64,000 nucleotides of DNA from Coptis chinensis (taxonomy: Eukaryota > Streptophyta > Magnoliopsida > Ranunculales > Ranunculaceae): contig CM027384.1 in the NCBI GenBank assembly GCA_015680905.1, positions 78,835,501 to 78,899,500 of the forward strand. Reading direction: 5' to 3'. A program made the position numbers and the translations under genes. Under the pieces are notes generated by a model that saw nothing but the letters and a program-made list of their open reading frames with translations, was not told the origin of the DNA and did not search any database. Positions 39,341 to 56,340 of this stretch are shown in pieces (positions within the stretch are counted from its first letter, which is position 1; each line of letters opens with the position of its first letter).

Positions 39341-41662
39341 AGAACAACACAATATTGATTTCGAAACGAATAGTCAAAAGAATAATGACTTGCAAATGAA
39401 CCAATACTCTATAAGTCTTAGGTCTAAAATTGCAATGAACCAATATTTAGAGAACACTTACAAACCAACTTCTTAACAGATAAACGTGCATCGGGAATAA
39501 AGAGCACGGACAATATATACCTGAAACCAATGGAAAAAAAGCAAGTATAATCAGTTTAAATCTAACAATAATGAAGCTGTACAATGATTATACGAGTAAA
39601 CGTCAGATTCTCTAGAAGCTAGAGTACACATAATTTAACATTCGAGTACAACATGACTAACTAATTAAACTTATTAAGTAGACTACAATAAGGTGGCCAC
39701 TTAACTAATGCTAATTTCTCTAAGAACCATTTACAACAACTTTCACAATCATTACCATTAGTTTTATATCTTTCCCTCTCTATATCTATCTCTTTAGTGG
39801 GGAATGGGAAAGCTACAGTACATAAAGCATTTTAGAGACTTGGGTTTGTCTATTGAGATGCAATTTTAACACAATACATCCACTCAACATAAGACTTTTG
39901 ATGGCGTACTATTGAAGTAGGGTGGGTATCTCATAAAAAAAGTGAGGCAGATAATGGTAAAGTGAACAAATTCATAGGTAAAAGTAGAGTTTCGATACAA
40001 TGATCCTGAGTTCCAAGACCGGGTAACCTTTCGGAATCTCAGACCACACAATCATGGATTTAAACAAACAATAATAAGTTAATAACAAATTTTCATGAAT
40101 TTATTTCATAGCTAATGCAAGTACTTCAATTTTAAAGCTCGAGTTGTTAGCTTACCAAAGGAGTGTTTATGTGTTTTTGAAGACACATAGGATGCAACTG
40201 GGAATCAACAACATTTACTACTAACTTTCTCAAGAGAACGTTCAACTGCATTTCCAGAAAACTCGAACCCTTTTTTGTACAACAAAAATCAGTTCCCTAA
40301 TCTTTCTGCCCTTTCCCACCAAAAGCGAACATGACCACACTTTGGTCATCGAGCCTGCAACCATCAATAATACTTCAAGGAAAGGTAGTCAAACGATTAT
40401 ATCTCAAGCAATATATATATATATATATAAAAAAGATCTATCCACCACCTTTCAAATATGCTCTCCATAAGAAGGGCAGCCAAATTTAGGTGAAATAATG
40501 GTGTCGTCTCTTACCTCATAAGCTTAAATTACACCAAGAATCTAATTATAATAACTGCAAGAAGTTTGTGATTCCTATTTACGATTACTATATGCTAAAT
40601 AAATATACAATAAAATAAAATAAAATAAAAATGAAGGGTTATTATTTACTAGTTGAGGATTAATTTTAGTTATGAGAGTCACAGCTCCTCCATCAATATT
40701 AACAAAGCCTTGTTGTAAGCTGCAAAACCTAGTTTGTTACATATATGCAAACATACCCACCATGAGTAGCATATAGCGTAGTCATCAAAATTCAAGTAGA
40801 ACAACTAGTTGTTCAAGAAGATCTAAGTTAAGGAAATAAAGACAAAAAAATAGAGAAATCATAATATCAACTCAAATTTTATATTATTCCTAAACGTCTC
40901 AACCGAGAGCATTAGTTTTTGAATTCATGGTTGTATTCCATCAAGTGGAAATTTTCAGATCATGTCAAACTATCGCACTTGCGTAACAACTTCGAAATTC
41001 ATAGCCACTACTCATTCTACATCTCTCCATATAACATAGAGACTGACAGAAGCAAAAGTGTTTTACTTATAAAGTTTAATAAACGCATTACTACGCTTAA
41101 AGAAACAATCCATAGTTCTTTTAAAATGACTCAACCCAAACGGATAAGTTGAAGGTAAAATTTAATCAGCATAACAACTCAATCAGATTAAATGTTTTAG
41201 TATACCTCTAATTGCATCCATGAATGCTCTTCTGAACTCTGTAATTTACAACTGAAATTGAACAAAACCCAAAAGTTTCAAATTTCCTTATTCATACTAA
41301 GATATTCCAACTTTCAAAGAACATCAAAATGTTAGAGTAATACATACTTGGATTATGAGTTGAACATAATCGATCAAAATTCATTATATCACTGTCGTAC
41401 CATGAAATTGTAGACCACGAGAGAGTCGGAGAGGCAATATAATCGCGGGTAGCAATTGTGAGAAACCCACTTTTCACAGATGTTTATCAAAAAAAAAAAA
41501 CAAGACTTGGATGAACTGTTCCCGTGAGCTAGATAGACAAAAAACCCGACTGGGGAAGAGAACGATGGCTTGCAGTTTAATAACTGAAAAGCCTCGTAAC
41601 TGAAATTGAGATGACTGAGAAAGAAAAAATGGAAGAATCAATGGAAAAAGGATGAGCATGAA
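39341..41662. other. AT-rich region without a recognised gene
   Basis: Short ORFs only. The segment 41292-41477 on the minus strand looks like a 5' UTR or first exon (CT-rich, MKSGFLTIATRDYIASPTLS) but nothing recognisable follows. A (TA)n run lies at 40409-40428. Confidence 0.5.
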
Positions 41663-42252
41663 CCTTTGACACCCTCCGGTCCAAGCAGTGGAGAGCATGA
41701 TCATGTAAAACGTCGTTTGACATAACAAGGCCCTAGCCACAGAGGGGAAGGCAATAAAGTTCCCCCAAGTTTTTTTGTGAAAGATCCTTTGACACCCTCT
41801 GGTCCAAGTAGTGGAGAGCATAATCATGTGAAACGTCGTTTGACATACCAAGGACCTAGCCATAGAGGGGAAGGCAATAAAGTCTCCCCAAGTGTTTTTG
41901 TGAAAGATACTTTGACACCCTCTGGTCCAAGCAGTAGAGAGCATGATCATGTAAAACGTCATTTGACATACCAAGGCCCTAGCCATAGAGGGGAAGGCAA
42001 TAAAGTCCCCCCAAGTATTTTTGTGAAAGATTCTTTGACACCTTCCAATTCAAGCATTGGAGAGCCTGATCATGTAAAACGTTGTTTGACATACCAAGGC
42101 CCTAGCCATAGAGGAGAAGGCGATAAAATTCTCCCAATTTTTTTTGTAAAAGATCTTTTGACACCGTTTGGTCCAAGCACTGGAGAGCATAATCATGTAA
42201 AACATCGTTTGACATACCAAGGCCCTAGCCATAGAGGGGAAGGCGATAAAGT
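41663..42252 (+). pseudogene. SGPS repeat-precursor gene, copy A, 5' part lost
   Basis: Five 123-bp units start at 41663, 41786, 41909, 42032 and 42155. Each encodes 41 residues of the form VKDPLTPSGPSSGEHNHVKR then RLTYQGPSHRGEGNKVSPS. Promoter, start codon and signal peptide are missing: repeats begin abruptly at 41663. The first unit has TAA in place of the Q codon (cataacaagg region). A copia element splits the gene at 42252; the terminal unit resumes at 47843-47972 and ends with the family stop (KVPRIF*). It is a truncated paralogue of copies B-D. Confidence 0.8.
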
Positions 42253-42944
42253 TGTTGGGTTTGTGGAACTGTCGACCTTTGCTCCGGTGTCCGATGCCGC
42301 ATTCACGGTTTTTTGTTTGGAGAAGGGGGCACGACCTGCACTCAAGTTGGCCTTGTAGAAGGCGCACCCCGCGCTTATGCTTGCGAAAGTTACTGGAAGT
42401 TGTTAACAAAGGGGGCGCGATCTGCGCTCGACCACGCCTTATCCAGGGCGCACCCCACGCTCATGCCTTCCGAAATTTTCACTAATTTTTTGATATTTCG
42501 GCCCAAAGCCCATTTTCTCACCTTTTTCTATATGTACCTATATAAAAGAAATAGAATAGGGTTTTGAGACAACTTTAAGAGATTCATTTCATAGGAATAG
42601 TGGGAGCTCTATTGAGTTTAGGTTTAAGTGAGGTCTCTTGTTCTTGATTCTTGTTACCTCTTGTAAACTCTCTAATCTTTACTATAAAGGAAACTCGGGT
42701 CTTGTGTGGTCGTAGGTAACATTTACCGAACCACCTTAAATCTTTGTGTCTCTTTGCATTTACTTCCATATTTATTGTTTGCTATGATTGTGATGATAAA
42801 TTAGTGGTTTTGCTTGTTGAGTTTGTTGTGATAACTACCAAAGTCTTGGGTGGGTGATTTCCTTGGTGTGAGCTTCAAGTTGAAATCATTTGGGATAGAA
42901 AGTAACTAGATTAAGGTGTGACTTTCTAGTGAAATCTCCCAACA
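42253..42944 (+). repeat. 5' LTR of the copia element
   Basis: TGTTGGGTTTGTGG..CTCCCAACA, TATA box tatataaaag at about 42539. Contains GC blocks gggggcgcgatctgcgctc and gggcgcaccccacgctc near 42411-42462. Confidence 0.95.
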
Positions 42945-42946
42945 AG

Positions 42947-42958
42947 TGGTATTAGAGC
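42947..42958 (+). promoter_or_regulatory. Primer-binding site of the copia element
   Basis: tggtattagagc, one base from the canonical TGGTATCAGAGC site complementary to initiator tRNA-Met. Confidence 0.9.
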
Positions 42959-43072
42959 TTGGTTCCTGAATTTGTGTGTGAAGAAAAGACTCTACCTTTA
43001 GCATTGGAAGCTAGGTGTTTGTAGAAATTCCTCTGAGAGGGTCTCCACCATTATTTTGGCTCATTAAAAGTC

Positions 43073-46000
43073 ATGACGACCGAAAAAGAAAGCTACAAGA
43101 TAGAGAAGTTTGATGGTACAAACTTCGGCTATTGGAAAATGCAAATTGAGGACGTACTCTATCAAAAGGATTTGATGGAAACTTTGATAAATGAGAAGCC
43201 CGATGAGATTCTGCAAGGCATATGGGATTTGCAAGATAGAAAGGCATTGGCCACAATCTGATTTAGTTTCTCAAAGTCGGTAGCCTTTAATATTAAAACT
43301 GAGAAGATGGCGAAGTCTCTCATGGAGGCACTTACTACCATGTATGAACAACCCTCGGCCATGAACAAAGTTTATTTGATCACCAAGTTGTTTAGTATAA
43401 AAATATTGGAGGGGACCTCCTTTAAGGATAACCTAAATGAATTCAACTAAACTAAGGACCAATTAGAGTCGGTTGAGATTACATTTAGTGATAAGGTGCT
43501 AGCCTTGGCGATACTTGGACAATTGCCTCCAAGTTGGAAGGCAACTATGGTGGCTATTAGTGGCTTTGTAGGAATGACCAAGTTGAAGTTTGAGCACGTT
43601 GTTAGTATGGTACTAACCAAAGAAATCCGAAGACAGGATTGTCCTTCATCTTCGGAGTCAACTTCGGGGTCAGCATTGAGCACTAAAAGTAGATGAAGAA
43701 ATTCATACAGGAGTCGTGGTAAGAAAAAGTGGAGGGGGAGATCGAAATCTCAAGCCCTCCGATTGCAAAGTGTTGAACACAATCCTCGAGATATAAGTGA
43801 AGTTATATGCTACAATTGTGGTAAACCTGGCCACTATAGTAGCAATTGCCCGGCACTAAGAAACAACAACAACATTAATAGGAACAAGAAAAAGAATCAA
43901 GAAGCTAATGTTATTGAGATGGTAAATGATGCTTTAACATATTCGATGGAGCATAAGAAGGAGTCTTGGGCACTTGATTCCGGCGCATCTTTCCATGCTA
44001 CCTCACATCGAGAGTTCTTTGAGAACTACACCAAAGGTGACCTTGGAACAGTCTTTCTCAGCGATGACCAACCTTGTGACATTGTCGGCAAGGGTGACGT
44101 GCATGTCAAGATGAATGGCTTGTCATGGTTATTGAGGGACATCAGACAGGTTCCAGATTTGAGGAAGAATTTGATTTCTGTGGGGATATTGGCAAATGAA
44201 GGAATTGTTACAGTGATCACCAGTAACACTTGGAAGGACTCGAAGGGTTCAATGGTTGTTGTAAATGGTAAGAAAGATGGTACTCTCTACATGACTACAC
44301 ATGGTTGTGAGTTGATTGTCGTGGCACATGGAAAAAAGGATCTGAATGTTTGGCACCGCAGACTTGAGTCACATGAGTGAGAAAGGAATGCAAATCCTTC
44401 ACTCTTCTGGTAAACTCCCAAAGTTACAGTCGACTAAAATTGACTTCTGTGAGAACTGTGTATTTGGAAAGTAGAAGCGGGTGAGTTTTCAGAGAATGGG
44501 TCAGACTCTAAAAGCTAGCAAGCTTGAGTTGATTCATACAGATGTCTGGGGGCCAGCTAATGTCTCTTCACTTGGCGGAAAGTCATATTTTGTGACTTTC
44601 ATTGATGACCATACTAGGAAGGTGTGGGTCTATTTCTTGAGACACAAGTCAGAAGTATTTGAAGTGTTTAAGACTTGGAAGGCCATGGTTGAGAATGAGA
44701 CAAGCTTGAAAGTAAAGAAGCTGAGATCCGACAACAGTGGAGAGTATGAGGATTCAGGTTTTAAGAAGTACTGTGCTTATAATGGCATCAAGATGGAAAA
44801 GACTTTGCCAGGGACACCTTAGCAGAATGGGGTTGCAGAGCAGATGAATAGAACACTGACAGAGAGATCTAGGTGTATGCATACACTAGCAGGTTTGCCC
44901 AAGCAGTTATGGGCAGAAATTGTTAGCACAACAGCTTACCTGATCAATAGAGGACCGTCAGTACCTTTGGATTTTAAAATTCCAGAGGAAGTGTGGAGCA
45001 GGAAGGATGTGAACATTTCCCATTTGAAGGTGTTTGGTTGTGTGTCCTATGTCCACATTAGTGACCAAGCTAGAAGCAAGCTTGATGCTAAGTCACTAAA
45101 GTGCACCTTCATTGGCTATGGCGGTGATGATTTTGGGTATCGCTTTTGGGATGATCAAAATTGGAAAATCATTCGTAGTAGAGATGTTGTGTTTAATGAG
45201 AAGGTGATGTACAAGAACAGAGATGAAACACAAACCAAGGAATCGGTTACAGAGAGTGGCACAGAGTATGTTGAGTTGGAAGACTTTGATGTAAGTCGTG
45301 GTATAGTGGAAGCCCCACAGTCAGAGGATGACAGTAGTAGTGACTCAGATAACAATGAGGATACTACACCACAGAGTCCATCTCCACCTTGTGCCCCAAT
45401 GAAGACATCTAGGCCACATGTACTGAGTACAAGATATCCACCTTTCACCTATGTGAATTACTTGCTACTTACTGATGGTGGCTAGCCTCAATGCTATGAT
45501 AAAGCATTAAAGGTGAGTGATGTAAGCAAGTGGGAGCTTGCTATGCAAGATGAGATGAAGTCCCTCATCTCTAATGGCACTTGGGAGTTAGCCAAACTAC
45601 CCATGGGCAAGAAGGCTCTACAGAACAAATGGGTGTTTAGAGTCAAAGAGGGACATGATGGTTCCAAGAGATACAAAGCGAGGTTAGTCGTCAAGGGATT
45701 TCAGCATAAAGCAGGTGTTGACTTCACAGAGATATTCTCCCCAGTGGTGAAACTGAATACCATTCAGTCAGTGTTGAGTATTATTGCAGCGGAAGATTTG
45801 TATCTTGAGCAGTTGGATGTTAAAACTGCCTTCCTCCATGGTAACCTAGTTGAGGAAATTTATATGCAGCAACCGAAGGGTTTCATTAAGAAGGGTAAGG
45901 AGAATATGGTATGCAGGCTTAGAAAAAGCTTGTATGGTTTGAAACAAGCCCCTAGGCAGTGGTATAAGAAGTTTGATAACTTAATGCAAGGAAATGGCTA

Positions 46001-47035
46001 CTATAAGTATAACGCTGGCCATTGTTGCTACTTCAAGAGGTTTGACTCCAGCTACATCATCATATTACTATATGTTGATAATATGTTAGTAGCGAGTTCT
46101 GATATATTAGAAGTTGGGAGATTGAAAGAGAAGTTGGCAAGTGAGTTCTCTATGAAGGACTTGGGTACAGTGACACAGATTCTAGGGATGAGGATCAGAA
46201 GAGATAGGTAGAAAGGTATTCTGGAGTTGTCTCAGGCTGAGTATATTGAGAAGCTGGTATTGAAGAGGTTCAACATGGGTAGTGTGAAACCAGTTTGCAC
46301 ACCTTTGGCAGTCCACTTCAAGTTGTCCAAGGAACACTCTTCCAAAACTGTTGAGGAAAGAAACTTCATGGCTAAGGTACCATACGCCTCTGCCATTGGA
46401 AGTCTTATGTATGTCATGGTTTGTACGCGTCCGGATGTAGCCCAAGCAGTAGGAGCTGTCAGTCGATTTATGTCTAATCCTGGCAAGTAACATTGGGAAG
46501 CCGTGAAGTGGATATTGAGATATCTGAGAGGTACTACTGAGAAATGCCTATGTTATGGAAGGAGCATTGTGAACTTGCAAGGGTATGTGGATGCCAACTT
46601 TGCAGGTGAGGTAGATCGCAGAAGAAGCACTACTGGTTGTGTTTTTACAGTAGGTGCTACTGCAGTGAGTTGGATTTCTCAGTTACAGAAGATTGTTGTT
46701 TTGTCTACCATAGAAGCAGAGTATGTAGCCGTTACAGAAGCAAGCAAAGAGATGATTTGGTTACAGGGATTGATGGAAGAACTAGGGATGAAGCAAGAGA
46801 GGAGTGTGTTACACAGTGACAGTCAGAGTGTTATACATCTTGCTAAGAATTCCGCCTTTCATTCTAGGACCAAGCACATTGGTCTTCGGTATCATTTTAT
46901 CCGATCTCTGTTGAAGGATGAAGTTTTGACACTTGAGAAGATCCAAGGGAGTGAGAATCCGGCGGATATGTTGACCAAGACCGTGCCTACTGAGAAGTTG
47001 AAGTTGTGTTCAACTTCGGTAGGTATTCTTGCTTG
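43073..47035 (+). pseudogene. copia gag-pol polyprotein, nonsense codons and one frameshift
   Basis: Order: gag from ATG 43073 (YKIEKFDGTNFGYWKMQIED; CCHC CYNCGKPGHYSSNC at about 43810), protease LDSGAS (about 43975), pre-integrase VWHRRLES (about 44350), integrase (HTDVWGP, FIDDHTRKVWVYFLRHKSE, SDNSGEY, QNGVAEQMNRTL), reverse transcriptase (WVFRVKEGHDGSKRYKARLV, LDVKTAFLHGNL, SLYGLKQAPRQWY, YVDN) and RNase H (DANFAGEVDRRRSTTGCVFT, SDSQSVIHLAKN, RTKHIGLRYHFIR). A one-base insertion near 44375 and about eight stops break it. The RT motif is YVDN rather than YVDD (about 46071-46082), removing a catalytic aspartate. Size and order are normal for plant copia. Confidence 0.92.
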
Positions 47036-47135
47036 AAGACCATGATGGATGAGCCGAGTGTTTCATTAGTAAATTGGATTTGGATTGAGTTGTTACAATT
47101 GAGATGTGATGTGCATGTAAAATCTCGAAGGTTCC

Positions 47136-47146
47136 AAGTGGGAGAT
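47136..47146 (+). promoter_or_regulatory. Polypurine tract of the copia element
   Basis: aagtgggagat immediately before the 3' LTR; primes plus-strand DNA synthesis. Confidence 0.85.
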
Positions 47147-47837
47147 TGTTGGGTTTGTGGAACTATTGAGATTTGCGACAGCGTCCGATGCCGCGTTCAC
47201 GGTTTTCTGTTTGGAGAAGGGGGCGCGACCTATGCTCAAGTTGGCCTTGTAGAAGGCGCACCCTGCGCTCATGCTTGCGAAAGTTACTGGAAGTTGGTAA
47301 CAAAGGGGGCGCGATTTGCGCTCAACCACGCCTTATCCATGGCGCACCCCGCGCTCGTGCCTTCCGAAATTTTCACTGATTTTTTGATATTTCGGCCCAA
47401 AGCCAATATTCTCACATTTTTCTATGTGTACCTATATAAAGGAAATAGAATAGGATTTTGAGACAACTTTGAGAGATTCATTTCATGGGAATAGTGGGAG
47501 CTCTATTGAGCTAGGGTTTGAGTGAGGCCTCTTGTTCTTGATTTTTGTTACCTCTTGTAAACTCTTCAATCTTTACTATAAAGGAAACTCGGGTCTTGTG
47601 TGGACGTAGGTAACATTTACCGAACCACCTTAAATCTTTGTGTCTCTTTGTATTTACTTCCATATTTATTGTTTGCTATGATTGTGATGATAAATTAGTG
47701 GTTTTCTTGTTGAGTTTGTTGTGATAACTACCAAAGTCTTGGGTGGGTGATTTTCTTGGTGTGAGCTCTAAATTGAAATCATTTGGGATAGAAAGTAACT
47801 AGATTGAGGTGTGACTTTCTAGTGAAATCTCCCAACA
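47147..47837 (+). repeat. 3' LTR of the copia element
   Basis: 691 bp, same ends and GC blocks as the 5' LTR, with scattered differences such as actattgag for actgtcgac after the first 17 bp. Confidence 0.95.
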
Positions 47838-47842
47838 AAAGT

Positions 47843-47972
47843 TTTCCCAAGTTTTTTGTGAAAGATAATTTAATATCCTCCGGTCCAAGCAGTGGAGATT
47901 ATATAAAACGTCGTTTGACATACGAAGGCCTTAACTATATAGGGGAAGGCGATAAAGTTCCCAGAATTTTTT
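47843..47972 (+). pseudogene. Terminal unit of copy A after the copia insertion
   Basis: Encodes VKDNLISSGPSSGDYIKRRL then TYEGLNYIGEGDKVPRIF and stop. This degenerate last unit, lacking a few residues of the first motif, occurs in all copies and marks the end of the gene. Confidence 0.75.
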
Positions 47973-48084
47973 AGTCCAAGCATTGGGAAGGATGACTCAC
48001 ATTTCTATAATCTAAGAACCCACAATTTTTTTTTTTCGATAAAGATAGTTATTATCTTATAAAAGAGTGTAACTTTTATATGCA

Positions 48085-48893
48085 CTAGCAAAATGCACGT
48101 GCTCTGCACATGGATGGAAAATAGATAATGTTGACAGGTATTTGTATTTGAATATAATATCGGTGTCTACATTTCATTTTTATTATGAAATTATATTAGC
48201 ATACTCAGTTCATTAGCTTTCGAAACTGGCATGCTAAAAGAATATGGAAGATGGAAGCCGTTAAATACCATCATACCATATATCTGCTTGTACATACAAA
48301 AAAATTTCAAATATGATCGTGTGTTCACAGAGTGGTGACATATATAATCTTAGAAAAAATGTTACGTGGTTTTAGAGGTGGAACTTGGAAGTGTGGAACA
48401 CAATTAGATAATACTGTGTAAGTTCATAAAAAGTAAAAAAATGCAATTGTCCATCATAAGTTCAAAGTTGAATTGCAGTCCTGACGACATGGGTAAACAT
48501 AGGCACGAAGAATAATTGTTTCCTCTAAATTTGATGAAAAAAGGTAGTAATTGCCCCCTCCGTTCGAAAGGGTTTTCTTTTAATGTTTGGTATTTATGAT
48601 AATTAATGTTGGTACTTATGGTGCGTACAATTCAAATGATGCGTGGATTTGTTTTTTTTATTCAACAACACATGAAATGACCAATTACTCGTCTAAAGTG
48701 ATAAGCAATACTTTGATTTAAGGATAATATGGGAACAAGAAAATTCACAAAAGCGAAAAAGACCAAGTAGTCCTTATAAACAGCATTTGGGTATGTTTAT
48801 TTAATTTTTCATTTAGGGGTATTATGCGTAAGAAAAATACCCAGATGAATTTAAGAGGCAAGGTTGATTATAGGAGATACTACTAGTAGAGAT
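48085..48893 (-). mobile_element. Short Helitron, copy in unit A
   Basis: On the minus strand it begins TCTCTACTAGTAGTATCTCC and ends GTGCAGAGCACGTGCATTTT then GCTAG. Flanks are A before TC and T after CTAG, the Helitron insertion preference. A stem (GTGCAGAGCAC) lies near the 3' end. 809 bp, no coding sequence: non-autonomous. Confidence 0.75.
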
Positions 48894-49637
48894 TATGTGT
48901 AGATTTTTTTTTCGATAATACAATTTTGTATGTAGATTAAAAACAAAAAAACTACCCTCACATCAATGTATTATTATATAGGTCGATTGATCCTCAAAAT
49001 GGACTCAGATGTGTTTAAGTGTTGACATTGATTTCATATAAAAAATCATTATATTGAAACTATTAATTAGGCTTATTATTTGTGAGATTGAAATAGCATA
49101 TATTCCATCCATTGTTTCTTTAAATCTTGGAAATCACTAGATCTTAATCCCAGCCCAGCCAAAATATTGATTGAAAAATAACCAAATTGCTCCTCACCAA
49201 TTGAAACATTGCTCATTTCAAACTGTGCTCAATTTCAATGAGATTTTAGATCTATAGTAAATATAAGATGTAGTTATTTGTGAGATTGAAATAGCATACA
49301 TCCATTGTTTCTTTAATTTGTAAATCAAAAAGGCCAATATGTTGAAAAATAACCAATTGACCAATGCAAACATTGGGCTAATTTTTAGATCAATTATGAT
49401 CATAACTCCTCGGAGATCTTTTTTAAATCTAAAAAGGCCAATAAATTAGGAAAAACACTTTCGAAAAAAATAGTAATAAGATAAAATTAAACAAATAATG
49501 TTACTTGGTCTGCTACTATGTTAGAACTAATTCAGGTGAAGCCATTTATCAACGGCCTTTGACTTTGAACAATAATGAGGTAATTTGAGCTCTACTATGA
49601 TAAGCAAAAGAGCCTGGCTTATGTTGGAGAGCTATTA
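48894..49637. other. Upstream region of copy B
   Basis: AT-rich, no ORF supported; homologous stretches precede copies C and D. It contains a poly-T run after the Helitron. Confidence 0.7.
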
Positions 49638-49647
49638 ATGAGAATAG

Positions 49648-49710
49648 TAGCTCCTAAATCTAAGGAGCTAAACCAAGTGTATACAATTTGTCCGACAAAG
49701 TATATAAACC
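49648..49710 (+). promoter_or_regulatory. Promoter of copy B: palindrome and TATA box
   Basis: An 8-bp inverted repeat, TAGCTCCT and AGGAGCTA separated by 7 bp (about 49648-49670), is followed by tatataaacc at 49701-49710, about 70 bp before the ATG. Copy C has tatatacacc (52831) and copy D tatagaaacc (55251), so the box is weakened there. Confidence 0.6.
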
Positions 49711-49771
49711 CGCTAAACATTATACACTCTTCAGTCCTGCCACCATCCTTTCTGACGTACATAACTAGGCC

Positions 49772-51109
49772 ATGGCTATCAGAGTATCAGCTTCTCCAAA
49801 TCTCACACATTCATCTTCAACCTCACCATCCTCACTATATTCATAACATTCCAAATTTGTGCATCTCAAATTCTTGAAGATGGAGCTAATTCATACAAGA
49901 AGCCAGAGATGGCAGTACACCATCTTACTTCAAGTTTTTTTGTGAAAGATCCTTTGACACCCTCCGGTCCAAGCAGTGGAGAGCATGATCATGTAAAACG
50001 TCGTTTGACATACCAAGGCCCTAGCCATAGATGGGAAGGCAATAAAGTCCCCCCAAGTTTTTTTGTGAAAGATCCTTTGACACCCTTCGATCGAAGCATT
50101 GGAGAGCCTGATCATGTAAAACGTCGTTTGACATACCAAGGCCCTAGCCATAGATGAGAAGGCGATAAAGTTCCCCCAATTTTTTTTGTGAAAGATCTTT
50201 TGACACCCTCTGGTCCAAGCACTGGAGAACATAATCATGTAAAACATCGTTTGACATACCAAGGCCCTAGCCATAGAGGGGAAGGAGATAAAATTGTTGG
50301 GTTTGTGGTACCGTCGAGTTTTGCTCCGGTGTATGATGCCGCGTTCACTGTTTTCTGTTTGGAGAAAGGGGTGCGACTTGCGCTATAGTTGGCCTTGTAA
50401 AAGGCGCACCCCGCGCTCATGCTTTCGAAAGTTACTGGAAGTTGGTAACGAAGGGGGCGCGACCTGCGCTCGACCACGCCTTATCCAAGGGGCTCCCTGC
50501 GCTCATGCCTTCTGAAATTTTCCATGATTTTTTGTTATTTCGGCCCGAAGCCCATTTTCTCACATTTTTCTATGTGTACCTATATAAAGGAAATAGAATA
50601 GGGTTTTGAGACAACTTTGAGAGATTCATTTCATGGGATTAGTGGGAGCTCTATTGAGCTTGGGTTTGAGTGAGGCATCTTGTTCTTGATTCTTGTTATC
50701 TATTGTAAACTCTCTAATCTTTACTATAAAGGAAACTCATGTCTTGTGTGGACGTAGGTAATATTTACCGAACCACCTTAAATCTTTGTGTCTCTTTGCA
50801 TTTACTTCCATATTTATTGTTTGCTATGATTGTGATGATAAAGTAGTGGGTTTGCTTGTTGAGTTTGTTGTGATAACTACCAAAGTCTTGGGTGGGTGAT
50901 TTCCTTGGTGTAAGCTCCAAGTTGAAATCATTTAGGATAGAAAGTAACTAGATTGAGGTGTGACTTTCTAGTGAAATCTCCCAACAAAAGTTCCCCCAAG
51001 TTTTTTGTGAAAGATCATTTAATATCCTCCGGTCCAAGCAGTGGAGATCATATAAAACGTCGTTCAACACACGAAGGCCCTAACTATATAGGGGAAGGCG
51101 ATAAAGTTC
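49772..51109 (+). pseudogene. SGPS repeat-precursor gene, copy B, frameshifted and split by a solo LTR
   Basis: ATG at 49772, but an 8-bp duplication directly after MAI shifts the frame, so the signal peptide seen in C and D is lost. Three 123-bp units follow (49951, 50074, 50197) with PLTPSGPSSGEHDHVKRRLT and YQGPSHR; the second ends in TGA within HR*EG. A copia solo LTR (50295-50986) lies at the same point as the copia element in copy A, and the terminal unit follows it. Otherwise as copy C. Confidence 0.8.
50290..50991 (+). mobile_element. Solo copia LTR in copy B
   Basis: 692-bp LTR (50295-50986) of the same family as 42253-42944, flanked by aaaat and aaagt. It occupies the same position in the repeat gene as the full element in copy A. 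A solo LTR arises by recombination between the two LTRs of a full element. Confidence 0.92.
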
Positions 51110-51242
51110 CCAGAATTTTTTAGTCCAACCATTGGGAAGGATGACTCACATTTCAATAATCTAAGAACCCACAATTTTTTTTTTTTTTTTTTTTTTTTAA
51201 AGATAGTTAATATCTTAAAAAAGAGTGTAACTTTTATATGCA

Positions 51243-52049
51243 CTAGCAAAATGCACATGCTCTACACATGGATGGCAAATAGATAATGTTGGTAGGTATT
51301 TGTATTTGAATATAATATCGGTGTCTACATTTCATTTTTATTATGAAATTATATTAGCATACTCAGTTCATTAGCTTCCGAAACTGGCATGCTAAAAGAA
51401 TATGGAAGATGGAAGTCGTTAAATACCGTCATACCATATATCTGCCTATACATACAAAAAAAATTCAAATATGACCGTGTGTTCATAGAGTGGCGACATA
51501 TATAATCTTAGAAAAAATGTTACGTGGTTTTAGAGGTGGAACTTGGAAGTGTGGAATACAATTAGATAATACTGTGTAAGTTCATAAAAAGTGAAAAAAA
51601 AAGCAATTCTCCATAAGTTGAATTGAAGTCCTGAAGACATGGTAAACATAGGCACGAAGAATAATTGTTTCCTCTAAATTTGACGAAAAAAGATAGTATA
51701 TGTAATTGCCCCCTCCGTTCGAAAAGGTTTTCTTTTAATGTTTGGTATTTATTATAATTAATGTTGGTACTTATGGTGCGTACAATTCAAATGATGCGTG
51801 GATTTGTTTTTTTTGTTCACCAACACATGAAATGACCAATTACTCTTGTCTAAGGTGATAAGGAATACTTTGATTTAAGGATAATATGGGCACCAAAAAA
51901 TTCACAAAAGCGAAAAAGACCAAGTAGTCCTTATAAACAACATTTGGGTATGTTTATTTAATTTTTCATTTAGGGGTATTATACGTAAGGAAAATACTCA
52001 GATGAATTTAGGAGTCAAGGTTCATTATAGAAGATACTACTAGTAGAGA
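51243..52049 (-). mobile_element. Short Helitron, copy in unit B
   Basis: Same ends as 48085-48893: CTAG at the 3' end on the minus strand with a T flank, TCTCTACTAG at the 5' end with an A flank. 807 bp. Confidence 0.75.
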
Positions 52050-52057
52050 TTATCTGT

Positions 52058-52093
<36 letters not shown>

Positions 52094-52902
52094 ACAATTT
52101 TATATGTAGATTAAGGACAAAAAAACTACCCTCCCATCAATGTATTATTATATAGGTCGATAGATCCTAAGAATGGTCTCAGATGTGTTTAAGTGTTTAC
52201 ATTGATTTCATATAAAAAATCATTATATTGAAACGATTAATTATTAGGCTTATTATTTGTGAGATTGAAGTAGCATATATTCCATTGTTTCTTTAAATCT
52301 TGGAAATCACTAGATCTTAATCCCGGCCCAGTCAAAATATTGATTGAAAAATAACTGAATTGCTCCTTACTAATTGAAACATTGCTCATTTCAAACCGTG
52401 GTTCATTTCAATGAGATTTTAGATCTATAGTAAATATAAGCTGACGTGTTGTACATACTTAATTTGTAACGGAAAAAAAAAGGCCAATATGTAAAAATCT
52501 AATTGAAGATATGATACAGCAAGGGACTAATCGCAATTATGATCATAACTCCTGGGATATCTTTTTTCTGAAAAATTAGAAAAAACACTTTCGAAAAAAA
52601 TAGCAATAAGATAAAATTAAACAAATACTGTTACACGGTCTGATACACTGTTAGAACTAATTCACGTGAAGCCATTTATCAACTGCCTTTGACTTTGAAC
52701 AATAATGACGTAATTTGAGCTCTACTAAGATAAACAAAAGAGCCTAGCTTGTGTTGGAGAGCTATTAATGAGAATAGTAGCTCCTAAATCTATGGAGCTA
52801 AACCAAGTGTATACAATTTGTCTGACCAAGTATATACACCCGCTAAACATTATGCACTCCTCAATCCTACCACCATCCTTCTTGACGTACATAACTAGGG
52901 CC

Positions 52903-53555
52903 ATGGCTATCAACTTCTCCAAATCTCACACATTCATTTTCAACCTCACCATCGTCACTATATTCATAACATTCCAAATTTGTGCAGCTCAAATTCTTGA
53001 AGATGGAGCTAATTCATACAAGAAGCCAGAGAGGGCAGTACACTATCTTACTTCAAGTTTTTTTGTGAAAGATCCTTTGACAGCCTCCGGTCCAAGCAGT
53101 GGAGAGTATGATCATGTAAAACATCGTTTGACATATCAAGGCCCTAGCCATAGAGGGGAAGGCAATAAAGTCCCCCCAAGTTTTTTTGAGAGAGATCCTT
53201 TGACACCATCCAGTCGAAGCAGTGGAGAGCATGATCACGTAATACGTCGTTTAACATACCAAGGCCCTAGCCATAGGGGAAAAGGCAATAAAGTCCCCCC
53301 AAATTTTTTTGTGAAAGATCCTTTGACACCCTCCGGTCCAAGCAGTGGAGAGCCTGATCATGTAAACGTCGTTTGACATACCAAGGCCCTAGCCATAGAG
53401 GAGAAGGCGATAAAGTTCCCCCAAGTTTTTTTGTCAAAGATCTTTTGACACCCTCTGGTCCAAGCACTGGAGAGCATTATCATGTAAAACGTCGTTTGAC
53501 ATACCAAGGCCCTAACTATATAGGGGAAGGCGATAAAGTTCCCACAATTTTTTAG
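52903..53555 (+). pseudogene. SGPS repeat-precursor gene, copy C: secreted multi-peptide precursor, one frameshift
   Basis: Best preserved copy. ATG 52903 gives MAINFSKSHTFIFNLTIVTI and FITFQICAAQ, a classic signal peptide (cleavage likely after CAA). A short spacer (ILEDGANSYKKPERAVHYL) precedes units at 53074, 53197, 53320 and 53442. Each 41-residue unit has motif 1 (LTASGPSSGEYDH), a basic site KRR or KHR, and motif 2 (LTYQGPSHRGEGNK). A 1-bp deletion in unit 3 stops translation at 53376 (157 residues); in the shifted frame it would run to KVPTIF* at 53555. The last unit joins the start of a penultimate unit to the end of the terminal one. The SGPS core with following G and H recalls PIP/PIPL peptides of plant immunity and growth signalling; no receptor or function is shown here. 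Confidence 0.65.
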
Positions 53556-53663
53556 TCCAAGCATTAGGAAGGATGACTCACATTTCTATAATCTAAGTTC
53601 CCATAAATTTTTTTTTTTTCGATAAAGATAGTTATTATCTTATAAAAGAGTGTAACTTTTATA

Positions 53664-54473
53664 TGCACGTGCTCTGCACATGGATGGCAAATAGATAATG
53701 TTGACAGGTATTTGTATTTGAATATAATATCCGTGTCTACATTTCATTTTTATGAAATTATATTAGCATACTAAGTTCATTAGCTTCCGAAACTGGCATG
53801 CTAAATGGATATGGAAGATGGAAGCCGTTAAATACTGTCATACCATATATCTGCATGTACATACAAAATAAATTCAAATATGATCGTGTGTTAACAGAGT
53901 GGTGACATATATAATCTTTGAAAAAATGTTACGTGGTTTTAGAGGTGAAACTTGGAAGTGTGGAACACAATTAGATAAGACTGTGTAAGTTCATAAAAAG
54001 TAAAAAAAAATGCAATTGTACATCATAAGTTCTAAGTTTAATTGAAGTCCTGACGACATGGTAAACATAGGCACGAAGAATAATTGTTTCCTCTAAATTT
54101 GACGAAAAAATATAGTATATGTAATTGCCCCCTCCATTCGAAAGGGTTTTCTTTTAATGTTTGGTATTTAAGATAATTAATGTTGGAACTTATGGAGCGT
54201 GTACAATTCAAATGATGCGTGGATTTGTTTTTTTTATTCACCAACACATGGAATGACCAATTAATCTTGTCTAAGGTGATAAGCAATACTTTGATTTAAG
54301 GATAATATGGGCACAAGAAAATTCATAAAAGCGAAAAAGACCAAGCAGTCCTTATAAATGGCATTTGGGTATGTTTATTTAATTTTTCATTTAGGGGTAT
54401 TATGCGTAAGAAAAATACCCAGATGAATTTAGGAGTCAAGGTTCATTATAGGAGATACTATTACTAGTAGGGA
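53664..54473 (-). mobile_element. Short Helitron, copy in unit C, 3' terminus deleted
   Basis: Homologous to 48085-48893, but the plus strand reads tatatgcacgtgctctg instead of tatatgcactagcaaaatgc then acgtg: 13 bp between two tgcac repeats are missing, taking the CTAG end with them. It therefore cannot move by itself. Confidence 0.75.
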
Positions 54474-54475
54474 TT

Positions 54476-54507
<32 letters not shown>

Positions 54508-55323
54508 AGATAATACAATTTTATATGTAGATTAAGGACAAAAAAACTACCCTCACATCAATGTATTATTATATAGGTCGATTGATCCTAAGAATGGTCT
54601 CAGATATGTTTAAGTGTTGACATTGATTTCATATAAAAAATCATTATATTGAAACGATTAATTATTAGGCTTATTATTTGTAAGATTGAAGTAGCATATA
54701 TTCCATTGTTTCATTAAATCTTGGAAATCACTAGATCTTAATCCCAGCCCACTCAAAATATTGATTGAAAAATAACCGAATTGCTCCTAACCAATTGAAA
54801 CATTGCTCATTTCAAACCGTGCTCCATTTCAATTAGATTTTAGATATATAGTAAATATAAGCTGAGGTGTTGTACATACTTAATTTGTAACGGAAAAAAA
54901 AGGCCAATATGTAAAAATCTAATTGAAGATAGTATGCAGCGAGGGACTAATCACAATTATGATCATAACTCTTAAGAGATCTTTTTTCTGAAAAATTAGG
55001 AAAAACACTTTCGAAAAAAATAGTAATAAGATAAAATTAAACAAATACTGTTACTCAGTCTTCTACTCTGTTAGAACTAATTCAGGTTAAGCCATTTATC
55101 AACTGCCTTTGACTTTGAATAATAATGAGGTAATTAGAGCTCTACTATGATAAGCAAAAGAGCCTGGCTTGTGTTGGAGAGCTATTAATGAGAATAGTAG
55201 CTCCTAAATCTAAGGAGCTAAACCAAGTGTATACAATTTGTCCGACCAAGTATAGAAACCCGCTAAACATTATGCACTCCTCAGCCCTGCCACCATCCTT
55301 CTTGACATACATAACTAGGGCCA

Positions 55324-56340
55324 TGGCTATCAGCTTCTCCAAATCTCACACATTCATCTTCAACCTCACCATCCTCACTATATTCATAACATTCCAAATT
55401 TGTGCAGCCCAAATTCTTGAAGATGGAGCTAATTCATACAAGAAGCCAGAGTGGGCAGTACACCATCTTACTCCAAGTTTTTTTTAAAGATCCTTTGACA
55501 CCCTCTGGTTCAAGCAGTGGAGAGCATGATCATGTAAAACGTCGTTTGACATACTAAGGCCCTAGCCATAGAGGGGAAGGCAATAAAGTCCTCCCAAGTT
55601 TTTTTGTGAAAGATCCTTCGACGCCCTCCGGTCTAAGCAGTGGAGAGCATGATCATGTAAAACGTCGTTTGACATACTAAGGCCCTAGCCATAGAGGGGA
55701 AGGCAATAAAGTCCTCCCAAGTTTTTTTGTGAAAGATCCTTCGACGCCCTCCTGTCCAAGCAGTGGAGAGCATGATCATGTAAAACGTCGTTTGACATAC
55801 CAAGGCCCTAGCCATAGAGGGGAAGGCAATAAAGTCCCCCCAAGTTTTTTTGTTGAAGATCCTTTGACACCTTCTTGTCCAAGCAGTGGAGAGCATGATC
55901 ATGTAAAACGTCGTTTGACATACCAAGGCCCTAGCCATAGAGGGGAAGGCAATAAAGTATCCCCAAGTTTTTTTGTGAAAGATCCTTTGACACCCTCCGG
56001 TCCAAGCAGTGGAGAGCCTGATATTGTAAACCGTCGTTTTACATACCAAGGCCCTAGCCATAGAGGAGAAGGCGATAAAGTTCCCCAAAGCTTTTTTGTG
56101 AAAGATCTTTTGACATCCTTTGGTCCAAGCACTAGAGAGCATAATCATGTAAAACGTCGTTTGACATACCAAGGCCCTAGCCATAGAAGGGAAAGCGATA
56201 AAGTTCCCCTAAGTTTTTTTTTGTTAAAGATCATTTAATATCCTCTGATCCAAGCAGTGGAGATCATATAAAACGTCGTTTTACATACTAAGGCCCTAAC
56301 TATATAGGGGAAGGCGATAAAGTTCCCACAATTTTTTAGT
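55324..56340 (+). pseudogene. SGPS repeat-precursor gene, copy D, longest array
   Basis: ATG 55324: MAISFSKSHTFIFNLTILTI FITFQICAAQ signal peptide, then ILEDGANSYKKPEW. A small indel at 55482-55488 (tttttttaaag) stops the frame before unit 1. Six full units start at 55492, 55615, 55738, 55861, 55984 and 56107, then the terminal unit ending near 56340. Units 1 and 2 share TAC TAA in place of TAC CAA and the variant ccttcgacgcc. Units 3-6 are open. It has more repeats than B or C. Confidence 0.8.

Follow-up and report, generated by a model that had tools for sequence, protein, structure and literature searches.

The peptide-hormone families IDA/IDL and PIP/PIPL are regarded as distinct, though akin; PIP/PIPL peptides are induced by elicitors and perceived by RLK7, and IDA/IDL peptides are perceived by HAE/HSL2. 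Multi-domain CLE and HypSys precursors each yield several peptides from one protein, with motifs that differ from those of the family treated here. Excerpts of earlier papers give one or two SGPS motifs per precursor (PMC4154866, PMC4526919, PMC10704477, PMC5427549, PMC10667265) and indicate that CEP precursors with several motifs exist, CEP9 having five (PMC4526919); an excerpt on IDA has it cleaved between the Lys and the Gly of LPKG (PMC6681299), and according to a survey excerpt every eudicot tested has the two IDA motif types (PMC4627355). We analysed a stretch of 64,000 nucleotides of Coptis chinensis (C8:78835501-78899500; the window), together with the 935.6 Mb genome. The window appears, on balance, to hold a tandem array, now in decay, of genes encoding a secreted IDA/PIP-type ('SGP-rich') peptide-hormone precursor whose unit was multiplied in the Coptis branch. 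The expansion of an IDA/PIP-type secreted precursor is real and so far known only from Coptis.

Arrays of a 123-bp tandem repeat, encoding a 41-residue unit with the consensus PSFFVKDPLTPSGPSSGEHDHVKRRLTYQGPSHRGEGNKVP, lie at 41663-42253, 49931-50292, 53054-53553 and 55473-56337 (copies A to D), and the unit family is beyond chance, with 52 matches in the Coptis genome (best expectation value, E, 1.7e-21). Unit numbers are 5+1 in A, 3+1 in B, 4 in C, where the last is fused with a terminal piece, and 6+1 in D; arrays and counts agree with the original prediction, made from the window alone, of 6, 4, 4 and 7 units. Copies B, C and D and the end of A recur at 2.4-3.2-kb spacing, flanks included. 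What had been called four tandem genes are four damaged copies, and the predicted order of a signal peptide followed by repeats holds in part: B, C and D have a signal-like sequence ahead of their units, but it is missing from A, is put out of frame in B by an 8-bp duplication at the ATG, and in D is cut off from the units by a stop. The features are:

41653-42251, + strand: copy A, five units without start or signal sequence, TAA in unit 1 (41723-41725)
42252-47838, + strand: copia-type long terminal repeat (LTR) element inside copy A, LTRs at 42252-42945 and 47146-47838
47846-47962, + strand: copy A, degenerate terminal repeat, behind the stop codon
49772-50293, + strand: copy B, ATG (49772) with the 8-bp duplication, three units at 49931-50292, TGA at 50155-50157 in unit 2
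50294-50987, + strand: solo LTR in copy B, at a unit position identical to that of the copy A element
50995-51111, + strand: copy B, degenerate terminal repeat, behind the stop codon
52903-53376, + strand: copy C, 157-codon open frame with signal sequence, two full units and the first motif of the third
53054-53553, + strand: copy C, four units of 123 bp, with the frame shifted in unit 3 by the loss of one base
55323-55487, + strand: copy D, signal sequence and pro-region, 54 codons, with a stop ahead of unit 1
55473-56337, + strand: copy D, six units and terminal repeat in no single open frame, TAA in units 1 and 2

Further multi-unit loci of the family, and its intact copy, are:

C4:24.406M: seven units plus terminal
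C6:98.889M: four units plus terminal
C7:23.51M: five units plus terminal
C7:48.05M: nine units plus terminal
L009:3399-4055, minus strand (C6:98888898-98889554): the intact copy at the C6 locus above, 218 codons, with signal peptide and four units

The C6 copy, alone intact among the eight multi-unit loci, is an undamaged paralogue elsewhere in the genome, such as the original prediction had proposed to look for, and its flanks are about 93% identical to those of window copy C. Signal sequence and units run in frame up to the first damage in C4 (201 codons, three units) and C7a (129 codons, two units), and a hydrophobic N-terminus, judged by eye to be a signal peptide, is present in C6, C4, C7a and window copies C and D. 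A TATA-like box, also judged by eye, stands 70-75 bases ahead of the ATG in B, C6 and the broken copy L014, and is altered in C, D and C4.

Each unit had been said to carry SGPSSGEHDH and QGPSHRGEGNK separated by KRR, but the motifs vary: among the 43 non-terminal units of the eight copies, SGPS is exact in 24, KRR in 29, QGPS in 36 and QGPSHRGEG in 26, and the Lys ahead of motif 1 is kept in 40. A stop codon directly follows the last full unit in five of the eight copies (A, B, C6, C7a and C4) and stands four codons past it in C7b; copy D has a longer T-run, and the last unit of copy C is fused with the terminal piece. The terminal 'unit', previously counted as part of the precursor, is thus non-coding, lying behind the stop codon in A and B (D differs and C is fused). 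Because the frame stops directly behind the last full unit, the ancestral protein probably ended there. Antisense frames on the minus strand cross arrays A and D at 41474-42049 and 55633-56208, each 191 codons long from stop to stop, and their counts of nonsynonymous (N) and synonymous (S) changes gave no sign of selection.

The signal sequence and pro-region match six further places. L015 (C8:91.4467M) and L016 (C3:89.5617M) are unannotated-looking 89-codon open reading frames (ORFs) that end in SGPSPIHD and have two SGxS motifs each, L017 is their broken sister, L014 is the broken copy named above, and L018 and L019 are frameshifted copies reading LLSKGF[QH]PPSGPSSGMTDPNF. When the two are aligned, the two-motif end of L016 faces one unit.

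Searched against 5.8 billion sequences, a profile built from six family members has a single hit among 45 candidates, P0121 of Thalictrum thalictroides, at E=1; this protein carries a signal peptide, and database names call it only 'hypothetical' or 'Transmembrane protein'. A relative with a signal peptide does exist in another genus, and P0121 and the intact C6 copy, also with a signal peptide, bear out the prediction that two SGP-type motifs alternate in a secreted precursor. The best Coptis match of P0121 (E 1.3e-9, one-way search) is:

L082:199-525 (C9:77446198-77446524): C9 two-motif precursor, intact, 109 residues

The C9 precursor has an IDA-like core with an extra Gly and a C-terminal PSPEAGH, and it is 40% identical to P0121, NLLAKG-HFPPSGPSRKGHN / NFLAKGLHYPPSGPSHRGHN and PSPEAGH / PSPGAGH being among the best-kept stretches. 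Against the window family profile, hhalign gave 95% for P0121 (E 3.6e-8) and 82% for C9 (E 1e-5) vs 0.5%, 19%, 0.5% and 10% for four PIP-type controls (P0001, P0038, P0046 and P0067, respectively). P0121 also matches L019 through the IDA-like stretch (E 0.017), and L018 at E 0.46, a level that unrelated matches (0.18 and 0.32) also reach. Judged by these alignments, the closest relative found outside the genus Coptis is the Thalictrum two-motif precursor and not a canonical PIP, and the 41-residue unit is probably a multiplied two-motif region of the Thalictrum/C9 kind. The first stretch of the C9 and Thalictrum proteins resembles the IDA EPIP motif, as given in an excerpt of PMC5972575, and the second looks like PIP and CEP peptide ends.

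Within the unit, motif 1 (FFVKDPLTPSGPSSGEHDH) is favoured as IDA-like because L018/L019 (LLSKGF[QH]PPSGPSSG) share PSGPSSG with it (38 of 5000 shuffles as good) and GmIDA1a shares PLTPSGPS (27; AtIDA, 189), and motif 2 (QGPSHRGEGNK) is favoured as PIP-like because GPSHRGEGN resembles GPSPRGRGH of AtPIP1 (19; StPIP1_1 GPSPRGPGH, 108); the shuffle tests of the unit comprise 13 comparisons and are uncorrected. Motif 2 with its tail also resembles a root-knot nematode IDA mimic (excerpt of PMC5972575; 34 of 5000 shuffles as good), probably by convergence on the same core. Over the whole Coptis genome, the canonical IDA/IDL core S[GA]PS[KR][KR]HN gave 26 pattern matches, none of them canonical, and PPS[GA]PSxxH gave none; an assembly gap or a real change may explain this.

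We propose an ancestral precursor that combined a signal peptide with a two-motif region, which in the Coptis branch would have become the 41-residue unit and been multiplied 3-9 times. The signal peptide would direct the precursor to the apoplast, and a cut after the Lys of FFVK, proposed by analogy to the IDA cut within LPKG, with another near KRR, would release a pair of distinct peptides from each unit, roughly DPLTPSGPSSGEHDH and LTYQGPSHRGEGNK. With proline hydroxylation in SGPS and QGPS, the released peptides could be ligands of receptor kinases of the IDA or PIP type, and the undamaged C6 copy may still release them. A bolder extension, which we offer as speculation and think unlikely, is that Ranunculaceae have dual-ligand precursors, of IDA-type plus PIP/CEP-type, that Coptis alternates this pair 3-9 times, that C6 would release two signals for two receptor systems in a fixed ratio, and that the window would show the form both born and lost.

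PIP pattern searches of the Coptis genome gave 5 and 23 matches, which include these PIP2-type genes:

C1: two motifs
C5: one exact motif, the second degenerate
C2:110.77M (L053): five motifs
C2:102.88M (L047/L050): eight motifs, with a near-identical neighbour at 102.886M
C6:19.08M (L056): five motifs in the first open part
C6:19.14M (L062): four motifs

Among 120 listed of 245 PIP relatives, at least three motifs occur in 66, at least four in 35 and at least five in 6, counts that are not a frequency, as the four-motif query and the length filter favour long proteins; the listed multi-motif relatives are often named hypothetical, transmembrane, CEP16-like or UDP-glucosyl transferase. The premise of one or two motifs per precursor agrees with the literature excerpts but not with these 66 relatives. 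Canonical PIP precursors with 3-8 motifs occur both in Coptis and elsewhere among plants, so a high motif number does not by itself set the window family apart.

The family had been predicted to be a many-copy PIP/PIPL precursor, in which both motifs would be altered PIP cores. The likeness of motif 2 to AtPIP1 and StPIP1_1 suits this, as do the multi-motif PIPs in the same genome and a BLASTP match of the C6 protein to the PIP at C2:110.77M (E 0.004 over 34 residues covering both motifs; E 1.7 to that at C6:19.14M). Yet the C6 protein has no match to the strict core SGPSxxGxGH (three to the relaxed form GPSxxGxG), the four PIP-type proteins reach only 0.5-19% in hhalign, and the window family is not among the 13 matches listed for a genome search with a multi-motif PIP, so that direct membership was not upheld and we regard it as rather improbable. 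Still less credible, to the point of being very improbable, is that the sense frame is beside the point and the repeats are a satellite, an RNA element or coding on the other strand. The 191-codon antisense ORFs over A and D and a weak, sub-cut-off GETHR match of the sense protein would fit it, but a repeat period divisible by three leaves frames open, antisense frame 0 has N:S 78:25 vs an expected 73:27.9, the unit folds as RNA no better than shuffles (z 0.46), and it is the sense frame that has the signal sequence, the stop and the relatives.

A third alternative, possible though doubtful, is that the multi-unit family is wholly dead, a former peptide gene enlarged by minisatellite-like repeat growth, with the C6 frame open by chance. 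In its favour, seven of the eight copies are broken and purifying selection was not seen among the units; the latter result, together with the lack of an intact long precursor in all four window copies, also weighs against the decaying hormone-gene array that we favour. The 107 distinct variants over the 43 non-terminal units comprise 76 N, 28 S and 3 stop (expected 79.5, 24.3 and 3.2) and fall on the three codon positions 37/34/36, with the five other frames alike; since unit substitutions look neutral, the multi-unit form may be dying. In the signal and pro-region (prepro) of five copies, the nonsynonymous to synonymous ratio (pN/pS) is 0.55-0.98 in 9 of 10 pairs, copy C and C6 differ by 5 N and 0 S, and pN/pS over units 1-4 of the same two is 0.80, so that no comparison shows a sign of constraint since amplification. 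Purifying selection on motif 2, considered from the diversity ratio (piN/piS 0.39 vs 0.76 and 0.68), was rejected as not upheld by the count of distinct variants (P 0.22), and dN/dS of the prepro region, compared with that of distant paralogues, ranges over 0.37-1.25 in eight pairs, with one undefined, and is too noisy for use. A search of 5.8 billion proteins, C. chinensis proteins among them, with the C6 protein gave 4025 candidates, none at E<=10, which also fits a dead family. The links to relatives add further points against our reading: the unit shows no significant likeness to the motif letters of L016 (3424 of 5000 shuffles as good) and a weak one to Thalictrum (233) and C9 (365), the best unit-Thalictrum alignment pairs the IDA-like core with motif 2 (GPSHRG) and not motif 1, and the hhalign alignments with P0121 and C9 rest mainly on the signal sequence, yet reach SGPS. 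Against a wholly dead family, however, C6 stays open for 218 codons, three other copies keep the signal sequence and 2-3 units, and the prepro region diverges less than the 570 upstream bases in 15 of 21 pairs, the other six running the opposite way and the upstream ends being perhaps not all homologous.

Other families were tried as well. The CLE 12-mer (RxVPSGPxPxHx) was rejected, the unit sharing only PSGP with AtCLV3p (317 of 5000 shuffles as good), and Pfam and NCBIfam gave sub-cut-off matches only (GETHR, E 1.4e-4, 21.6 vs 22.4 bits; EKR, 0.0023), judged to be low-complexity. A PDB search gave only FUS3 (E 0.19-0.21).

The copia-type element in copy A has LTRs that are 93.2% identical, a target duplication AAAGT, and matches to RVT_2 (reverse transcriptase) and integrase. 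It was probably inserted before A and B separated, because the solo LTR in B shares its unit position. At a generic plant rate, 7% LTR divergence would correspond to two to three million years. Elsewhere in the genome, C3:1.25-1.45M, C3:3.38-3.47M and C2:1.7-2.4M hold clustered gene pieces like coclaurine and tetrahydroprotoberberine N-methyltransferases, and a stretch of L029 is identical to one in PDB 6gkv.

Compared with known systems, the window family shares with IDA/IDL a secreted precursor and a PSGPS core after a Lys-containing FxxK stretch, as in FNFLPKGVPIPPSGPSKRHN (GmIDA1a, excerpt of PMC5972575), and differs in its many copies, in an EPIP that lies away from the C-terminus and in a precursor of more than 100 residues; the single near-C-terminal motif and precursor of less than 100 residues of IDA/IDL contrast with the 218 residues and four units of C6. 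The IDA core ending KRHN/RKHN is not in the unit, which reads TPSGPSSGEHDH, and C9 and Thalictrum read PPSGPS[RH][KR]GHN. With PIP/PIPL it has in common secretion, a motif 2 (GPSHRGEGN) like GPSPRGxGH, and several motifs per precursor, as in the multi-motif PIP2-type, but the canonical multi-motif PIP repeat TLGGIKxSGPSPGxGH is not in the window family and profile similarity is low. Several motifs per precursor are shared with CEP as well, whose hallmark SPG(I/V)GH is absent from the C6 protein (by inspection) and from the unit consensus. The literature excerpts, supplements unopened, hold no description of alternating IDA/PIP-like motifs or of PIP precursors with at least three motifs, and the intact C6 gene, not found among database proteins, marks an annotation gap. 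The alternating repeat form, if true, would be a natural test of two-ligand co-release. Most useful among the by-products is the two-motif precursor common to Coptis and Thalictrum, which differs from the window family in its single motif pair, its length of 109-117 residues, the 31 residues between its cores (vs about 13 in the units) and its motifs LAKGxxPPSGPSxxGHN and PSPxAGH, unlike those of the unit. It shares with the window family a similar signal sequence and an SGPS-type motif with another motif behind it, and if true, such a precursor in two genera of Ranunculaceae, with an IDA-like and a PIP/CEP-like motif, would bear on how these hormone families split.

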